Shown one piece after another: positions 25,285-45,878 of a stretch of 64,000 nucleotides of DNA (position 1 is the first letter of the stretch; each line of letters begins with the position of its first letter). Both the position numbers and the translations under genes were made by a program. This DNA is from Lamellibrachia columna (taxonomy: Eukaryota; Annelida; Polychaeta; Sabellida; Siboglinidae): NCBI GenBank assembly GCA_963662155.1, contig OY759268.1:5955701-6019700 (forward strand). Reading direction: 5' to 3'. The notes below the pieces were generated by a model. The model did not search any database, was not told the origin of the DNA, and saw only the letters and a list, made by a program, of their open reading frames with translations.

Positions 25285-25888
25285 ATTTGAAAGATGACTA
25301 CTCCGCTGACGAACGATGAAGAGAATTTCTGGCGTCTGGTGCGCATTCTATATAACGACGTTCCCAGCAAACTTCGTCATTTCTTTAAGTCTAAATTTCA
25401 ACAACAGTTCAACCTAACATGGTGCGATAACCCAACATTCGGACAATTATTCTTAGCCAACGCAAACACCGGGCGTACAGGACAACACATCATCAACGTT
25501 ATTCAGCAGGGCGATAGTCAACAGTTCGACTGTACAGCTCTGTTCTATTGTCTGCTGTTCTCTGGAACTCTGCAAACTGTGCTGCCGAGGCCAAGACGTG
25601 TGAGTGCGAGGACGCCTCCCATCACGGACAGTGAATGCATCGACGAGTTACGTGAGATGCGTAATGGCATGGCTCATTCCAACTCGTCCACTCTGTCGTC
25701 CGCTGATTTCAACAATAAGATCACAGCACTGACCACCATTTACAGTCAACTGCATTGGAGCTCCACTGTGTTGACCCAGTGGGCACAGGGGCCTATTGCC
25801 ACTGCGGATTATGTTAGTCTCGAGCAGAAGCTTCAGACAGATAGGCGCAAACTCAAGTCGATAGACCAGCGACTGCAGACTCTGGAAG
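25285..25888 (+). CDS. Exon 1: DZIP3-type HEPN domain and coiled coil
   Basis: The exon opens after the acceptor gtgctttcag; nine bases later comes the ATG at 25294, and it closes at the donor gaag|gtaagt in phase 1. The 198 complete codons form one alpha-rich domain resembling the HEPN domain of DZIP3/hRUL138-like proteins, which is widespread in invertebrate multidomain proteins. The HEPN signature R-N-G-M-A-H (R123 to H128, an R-x4-H motif) is intact, so a ribonuclease active site is possible. Residues about 172-198 form a charged heptad-like helix that looks like a short coiled coil. There is no signal peptide, so this end should be cytoplasmic. The family assignment rests on pattern memory, not a search. 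Confidence 0.72.

Positions 25889-45878: not shown

Follow-up and report, generated by a model that had tools for sequence, protein, structure and literature searches.

NLRs are usually taken to be cytosolic. In the cited sections of two papers the expanded NLRs of vestimentiferans are called intracellular or cytosolic (PMC8476170, PMC10192322); the counts given are 20 for Paraescarpia and 68 for L. luymesi, both sets being termed intracellular (PMC8476170). HEPN-NACHT proteins, in part with LRRs, have been described in bivalves and cnidarians (PMC9646362, PMC8260672, PMC10236652). Pinctada fucata has more than 50 NACHT proteins with an N-terminal HEPN domain (PMC9646362), and HEPN-NACHT proteins are present in corals and sea anemones (PMC10236652, PMC8260672). 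A survey of HEPN domains reported that DZIP3-type members occur fused to NACHT and LRR (PMC3710099). Membrane-bound NLRs with three to five N-terminal transmembrane (TM) segments were described in sea anemones (PMC5094078) and have been suggested in sponges (PMC12909245). In a sea cucumber, a membrane NLR with an extracellular NACHT domain was shown (PMC13133943).

In this study, a window of 64,000 nucleotides of the Lamellibrachia columna genome was analyzed, meaning the whole stretch at its full length. It contains a predicted gene that resembles the bivalve and cnidarian HEPN-NACHT(-LRR) proteins in its N-terminal HEPN, central NACHT, C-terminal LRRs (or other repeats in those proteins) and lineage-specific expansion. 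The R-x4-6-H motif found in most oyster HEPN-NACHT proteins has its counterpart in the window gene. The difference lies between HEPN and NACHT, where no TM or EGF part is described for those proteins in the cited text, supplementary lists aside. TM segments N-terminal to NACHT are shared with the sea anemone membrane NLRs; these belong to a separate lineage, Anthozoa, and neither HEPN nor EGF is described for them in the part of the paper used (PMC5094078). The sea cucumber AjNLRC4 and AjNLR-new also combine TM and NACHT in one receptor, and AjNLR-new is reported to have NACHT outside and the other domain inside, the topology predicted for the window gene; they carry an Ig domain instead of HEPN and EGF, and LRRs are not mentioned in the cited section (PMC13133943).

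An earlier note on this DNA had called the order of domains unexpected. The presence of TM and EGF parts in a gene with HEPN, NACHT and LRR was borne out, while HEPN-NACHT proteins and membrane NLRs as such were already known. The HEPN-NACHT-LRR architecture is likewise known, and is common among paralogs of the same genome. What appears to be new is the HEPN-TM-EGF-NACHT-LRR combination, together with a linker slot that varies within this family and can hold membrane exons; no report of HEPN with TM or EGF plus NACHT was found in the literature searched, supplements aside.

Gene model and domain assignment

The exons were located one by one. Thirteen exons on the plus strand, from the ATG at 25294 to 45878, had GT/AG borders throughout and compatible phases, and the joined frame was open over 1068 codons. 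The predicted chain of 1068 amino acids consists, from the N to the C terminus, of a HEPN-like domain, three membrane segments, two EGF modules, NACHT and five LRR units. The 13 exons, their splice sites, their phases and the open frame claimed in the earlier note were thus all found, and its start of the first exon, 25285, matched the acceptor position.

The HEPN-like exon (25285–25888) follows an acceptor that reads ttcag before the border and ATTTGAAAG after it; the exon contains the motif R123-N-G-M-A-H128 and ends in phase 1. The TM1 (27298–27366), TM2 (27859–27972) and TM3 (31632–31706) exons are all in phase 1-1 and have weak donors (1.5, 0.9 and −0.2, respectively). The exons of EGF module 1 (34434–34547) and EGF module 2 (35268–35381) are also in phase 1-1 and encode six cysteines each; EGF module 2 has a weak acceptor (−2.9). 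The NACHT exon (36664–38338) leads from phase 1 to phase 2 and contains the Walker A motif GNSGNGKT. Five LRR exons in phase 2-2 follow, at 41107–41190 (84 bp; weak donor, −0.9), 41637–41726 (90 bp; weak acceptor, −1.9), 44157–44240 (84 bp; weak acceptor, −2.8), 45030–45113 (84 bp) and 45632–45715 (84 bp). The last coding exon (45854–45878) continues the joined frame and ends with the stop codon at 45878, and downstream of it AATAAA/ATTAAA motifs start at 46006 and 46016. The HEPN donor and the NACHT acceptor scored strong, and the TM donors and the EGF2 acceptor scored low; the splice scores were built on textbook frequencies.

Large minisatellites are located at 8198–9023 (63 bp × 13), 29237–30986 (38 bp × 46), 39635–41110 (59 bp × 25) and 42455–43878 (49 bp × 29), and three of these four sit inside introns of the HEPN-NACHT gene. 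The intron between TM3 and EGF1 contains frames (32286–33500) that look reverse-transcriptase-like in translation. A short dispersed repeat flanks the EGF1 exon (34140–34250 and 34650–34760, copies 86% identical), with a related copy downstream of the gene (46435–46512). An open frame of 153 codons on the minus strand (6301–6759) presumably resembles F54H12.2-like proteins of mobile elements.

The HEPN exon of the window matched only HEPN_Swt1 in Pfam (0.0041, exon alone), below the cut-off. The family was examined as an alignment of 25 HEPN exons, that of the window and 24 more, out of 30 loci retrieved; the alignment excluded L013, L015 and L024 as well as L007, which is a near copy, and L033, which contains a stop. 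In the Pfam scan of these 25 HEPN exons at E ≤ 0.1, HEPN_Swt1 was matched by 18, HEPN_DZIP3 by 16 (best 2.6e-5), HEPN_RiboL-PSP by 11 and HEPN_Cthe2314 by 9 rows, and every other family was matched by 2 rows at most. The R-x4-H motif, which the earlier note had read as intact, was kept in the family (R in 25/25 rows, H in 24/25). The AlphaFold2 model of the exon was all-helical but poor (pLDDT 45.8). A profile search of the PDB gave four weak matches (best E 0.016), and hhalign with a HEPN_DZIP3 domain from the same genome gave a probability of 20.7 (E 0.0011). The comparison with HEPN_DZIP3 (PF18738) that had been suggested did not list the window exon, which by the curated cut-off does not belong to that family. 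Because the profile matches are at family level and R-x4-H is kept, the window domain is accepted, by profile and motif, as HEPN at the family level, and not as DZIP3-type.

Pieces of HEPN exons were also observed elsewhere. The N-terminal piece is repeated on contig C12 (34374133–34382833, minus strand) in eight short matches covering approximately residues 3–41 with 67–75% identity, and C15 (5705833–5711150, plus strand) has five short matches to the exon start (residues 2–37 to 3–75). Locus L018 shares 97% identity across 195 residues with the HEPN portion of a protein model from L. satsuma, which points to a vestimentiferan close to this species. In an L. satsuma model associated with L018, P0121, HEPN is joined to a PARP6-type protein with low-complexity stretches; this is possibly a misjoined gene model.

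Matches to the other domains were clearer for EGF and NACHT. EGF (PF00008) was over the cut-off in two stretches (1.8e-13, 50.9 bits vs 21.5), and NACHT was also over the cut-off (2e-20, 73.7 bits vs 26.7). In the profile check proposed for EGF_CA, NACHT and LRR, only NACHT passed; EGF_CA (5.6e-4) and LRR_4 (0.0031) were below their cut-offs. The five repeat exons align to the LRR part of the L. satsuma protein LSAT2_024892 (P0001), whose LRR_6 match (8.8e-6) is over the cut-off. The NACHT-LRR part and the two EGF modules of the earlier note were thus supported, the former by the NACHT match and the alignment of the repeat exons, the latter by PF00008. EGF1 and EGF2 differ over 37 codons by 15 silent differences and 9 residue changes, and this excess of silent differences suggests past coding constraint.

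The Walker B consensus of NACHT is DG-x-DE. In the window NACHT, Walker B ends in DGLDQ instead of this acidic end that is expected of an NLR; Q is present in 2/30 NACHT exons and E in 28/30. The branch of the window NACHT was 0.97 changes per site, compared with a median of 0.076. The NACHT exon has no stop codon, vs approximately 26 expected at this divergence without constraint (minimum 12 in 200 runs).

Membrane exons and the linker slot

Three predicted TM segments with a 19-residue hydropathy of 2.05–2.27 lie N-terminal to NACHT, as in membrane-bound NLRs. The interval between the HEPN and NACHT exons (25889–36663; 8389 unmasked bases, 8.4 kb) was scanned for TM cassettes at five settings, strict to relaxed. 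TM1–3 were the sole cassettes of their kind at all five settings, TM2 being caught in a shorter form at three of them. As background, the strict setting gave no cassette in 93,389 bases of the window, with each strand counted separately, and 4 in 542,430 bases from other loci; each of these 4 is a TM exon in sense orientation in a NACHT gene. The most relaxed setting gave 7 in the window background and 34 in the other loci. None of 200 Markov simulations gave a TM cassette at the strict setting. The three membrane segments claimed earlier therefore stand above background, although the counts are descriptive, because the thresholds were taken from the observed exons and the splice scores from textbook frequencies. 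The scan of the whole interval showed one further weak hydrophobic 1-1 frame near TM3 (31583–31666), and no fourth TM exon was found as a 1-1 cassette between EGF2 and NACHT at relaxed settings. EGF1 was the only 1-1 cassette with strong sites, of whatever composition, in the HEPN-NACHT interval.

No relatives of TM1–3 were found elsewhere in the genome at E ≤ 1. None were seen in protein searches, one of which did not list the L. satsuma protein LSAT2_024892, so its silence means little. TM2 is weakly like the TM-B exon of a gene at 16.1 Mb of contig C8 (33% in a three-row alignment), and for a common origin of TM1–3 with other TM exons only weak DNA matches were found.

The genome searched comprises 880 Mb in 30 contigs. 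The HEPN exon gave at least 94 matches and the NACHT exon at least 79, some of which are fragments. HEPN and NACHT exons adjoin on the same strand at C8:5.91, C8:5.93, C8:16.1, C8:42.03, C1:57.8, C1:58.16 and C1:61.9 Mb and in four more neighbor pairs on C5, as examples among many. By script, a phase-1 NACHT acceptor was found in 25/29 NACHT loci including the window; the other 4 had no clear site. Two paralogs with HEPN, coil and NACHT (C8:5906749–5935456, minus strand) lie 20–49 kb before the window on the opposite strand and form a local cluster with it; their HEPN exons are 56–57% identical to that of the window. L. satsuma LSAT2_024892, the top match among proteins, has the same order, with HEPN 55% (195 residues) and NACHT-LRR 43% identical, in line with the suggestion that the exon order be sought in relatives. 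It differs in its linker: a coil-like, Q-rich stretch of approximately 68 residues stands where the window gene has its TM and EGF exons. The linker slot of the C8:5.91 and C8:5.93 paralogs is likewise a Q-rich coil. A coil exon was not found in the window gene, either with the L. satsuma coil as query or in the cassette scan of the interval.

Since HEPN and NACHT follow one another within a single L. satsuma protein and across many exon pairs of the genome searched, the claim of a single gene is well supported, and the locus is very probably a single protein-coding gene. That the whole HEPN-TM-EGF-NACHT-LRR chain is present in one mRNA is somewhat more likely than not.

Besides the window gene, six NACHT genes have sense TM exons upstream: C8:16.1, C8:42.03, C8:41.65, C8:41.95, C1:29.85 and C14:25.3 Mb. 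The 4 cassettes of the strict setting, and a fifth at slightly lower thresholds, are in sense and on the HEPN-NACHT side of family genes. On the gap-side flanks (84 kb for each strand), 4–5 sense and 0–1 antisense TM exons were counted, and 0–2 on the outer flanks (168 kb), with low-complexity frames left out. The TM exons of the relatives are homologous to each other at the DNA level. DNA and peptide searches added the TM exons at C8:41.63 and C14:25.33 Mb, 15 kb and 2.4 kb upstream of the NACHT exon. The C8:16.1 gene was read completely as HEPN, TM-A, coil, TM-B and NACHT. The C8:42.03 gene has HEPN, one TM exon and NACHT, and no second TM exon was found in its gap. A HEPN exon was seen at C8:16.1 and C8:42.03; for the other four genes the upstream reach was shorter. 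For the closest HEPN paralog (C1:58.16 Mb), the only candidate TM exons in the gap were two weak frames that overlap each other (hydropathy 1.53), and these were rejected. EGF exons in other HEPN-NACHT gaps were looked for by eye, and only the two of the window gene were seen among the matches listed (155 matches in all; 150 of 5391 candidates scored), which is weak evidence for absence elsewhere.

In the tree, the five other rows labeled TM group with five rows that have no known TM exon, and together these ten form a clade (support 84/85). The window row is outside this clade, on a branch flagged by the tool as too long for sure placement. L044, L053 and L056 (broken or short) were left out of the tree, and the TM label of L048 refers to an exon 15 kb upstream. 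The tree fits one origin of the TM exons as well as two. As judged from the genes compared, the linker slot between the HEPN and NACHT exons, bounded by phase-1 introns, is variable in this NLR family.

Topology, mechanism and competing explanations

The best explanation is that the locus is a gene of an expanded vestimentiferan HEPN-NACHT-LRR family whose linker slot was filled with membrane and EGF exons and not with a coil; this reading is preferred tentatively, at a little under even confidence. Counting K+R gave 5 for the 20 residues preceding TM1, 1 for the stretch from TM1 to TM2 and 4 for that from TM2 to TM3. By the positive-inside rule, these charges place HEPN in the cytosol and the EGF modules outside, a setting that allows disulfide formation. 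After TM3, 3 K+R are present in 21 residues, two of them inside EGF1, and the charge argument is therefore weaker there. With no fourth helix cassette before NACHT, the NACHT-LRR part would be outside too. HEPN inside and EGF-NACHT-LRR outside is thus the arrangement predicted from the charges and the odd helix count, which sets HEPN and NACHT on opposite sides of the membrane unless exons are skipped. The compact detect-and-degrade device proposed in the earlier note does not follow in a simple cytosolic form, since the odd number of helices parts HEPN from NACHT unless skipping occurs.

Ire1 and RNase L are activated by sensor clustering, which acts on a paired RNase domain, and Ire1 does so across a membrane. 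In the window protein, the HEPN N terminus would be on the cytosolic side of the membrane, and EGF-NACHT-LRR would face out of the cytosol, either at the cell surface or in the lumen of a vesicle, for example one that holds symbionts. Binding of a ligand would cluster the protein, and the HEPN domains brought together in this way may then form pairs that cleave RNA on the cytosolic face, much as Ire1 or RNase L work. The likeness is in the way of working only; the RNase domain of Ire1 and RNase L is kinase-linked, and NACHT is not part of them. Ire1 is named in the part of the HEPN survey used here (PMC3710099). A Walker B that has lost its glutamate, together with the long branch, would fit a NACHT domain that is no longer a cytosolic ATP switch. 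An extracellular NACHT may seem unusual, yet it has a precedent reported in the sea cucumber (PMC13133943) and would fit the Walker B Q and the long branch. We infer the RNase activity and the immune role of the gene, both putative, from its domains. The topology and mechanism as proposed are held with less than even confidence.

The relatives do not all agree with this topology. Those at C8:16.1, C8:41.6 and C14:25.3 Mb have two membrane exons each, the second resting on a weak match at C8:41.63 (E 3.56) and C14:25.3 (E 0.13). This even number favors NACHT in the cytosol there and counts against the proposed topology. The weak donors and the symmetric membrane exons make soluble or even-helix isoforms plausible as well, and the two-helix relative together with the weak TM donors makes exon skipping likely. 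The five symmetric 1-1 exons could all be optional, with a soluble HEPN-NACHT-LRR protein or a two-helix cytosolic form as the main product and the full membrane form as a minor one. The end of the HEPN exon and the start of the NACHT exon are both in phase 1 and can be joined directly in frame, the TM donors are weak compared with the HEPN donor and the NACHT acceptor, and C8:16.1 shows the two-helix arrangement. However, the coil exon of the paralogs was not found in the window gene, so direct joining leaves no linker, and the TM frames are still open. Such a switch is unlikely, though it deserves serious weight.

Alternatively, two products could be made: a HEPN-TM-EGF receptor that ends beyond EGF2 in a hydrophobic tail, and a NACHT-LRR product with an mRNA of its own starting near 36.7 kb. 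NACHT after extracellular modules is unusual, and if the EGF2 donor is not used, another 51 residues can be read before a stop, and their 19-residue hydropathy reaches 2.17 (35382–35533, a possible alternative end). This open tail adds slightly to the weight of two products and takes a little from the preferred explanation. Against this rival, many genome pairs and one L. satsuma protein keep HEPN and NACHT colinear, and the phase-1 NACHT acceptor is common to the paralogs (25/29 loci including the window). The tail overlaps a short tandem repeat (35481–35528), and no AATAAA/ATTAAA was found between 35530 and 36660. Two products are considered quite improbable.

The TM cassettes might also be chance hydrophobic frames of introns, with the EGF exons alone, or neither, being used. 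TM1–3 lack relatives in the genome at E ≤ 1 and their donors are weak, but exactly three were found, all 1-1, compared with 0 in the 93 kb window background and 0/200 simulations, and relatives carry TM exons in the same slot. On the background scans, the simulations and the strand bias in relatives, chance frames were rejected as very unlikely. A decaying copy, that is, a fast-evolving relic of the family without function, would fit the long branch (0.97), the changed Walker motifs and the introns with many tandem repeats and a reverse-transcriptase-like remnant, but it is hardly credible with 1068 codons open, splice borders and R-x4-H intact, and a NACHT exon free of stops where unconstrained change would by itself have left approximately 26.

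Taken with the preferred reading of a family gene with a filled linker slot, the fullest form of the proposal is a one-protein transmembrane RNase receptor: an EGF-NACHT-LRR part facing outward or into a vesicle and without ATP hydrolysis, three helices and a cytosolic HEPN RNase, in a family that would swap coil, TM and EGF exons in the phase-1 slot and so move the sensor between cytosol and membrane. This form is doubtful as a whole. If several vestimentiferan NLRs are membrane-spanning, they might monitor the surface or the symbiont vacuole in an animal that depends on bacteria inside its cells. With HEPN placed behind a membrane NACHT, it would become possible to test whether a signal from outside leads directly to RNA cleavage. 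The shared phase-1 linker slot would offer a simple path for an animal sensor to change compartment.
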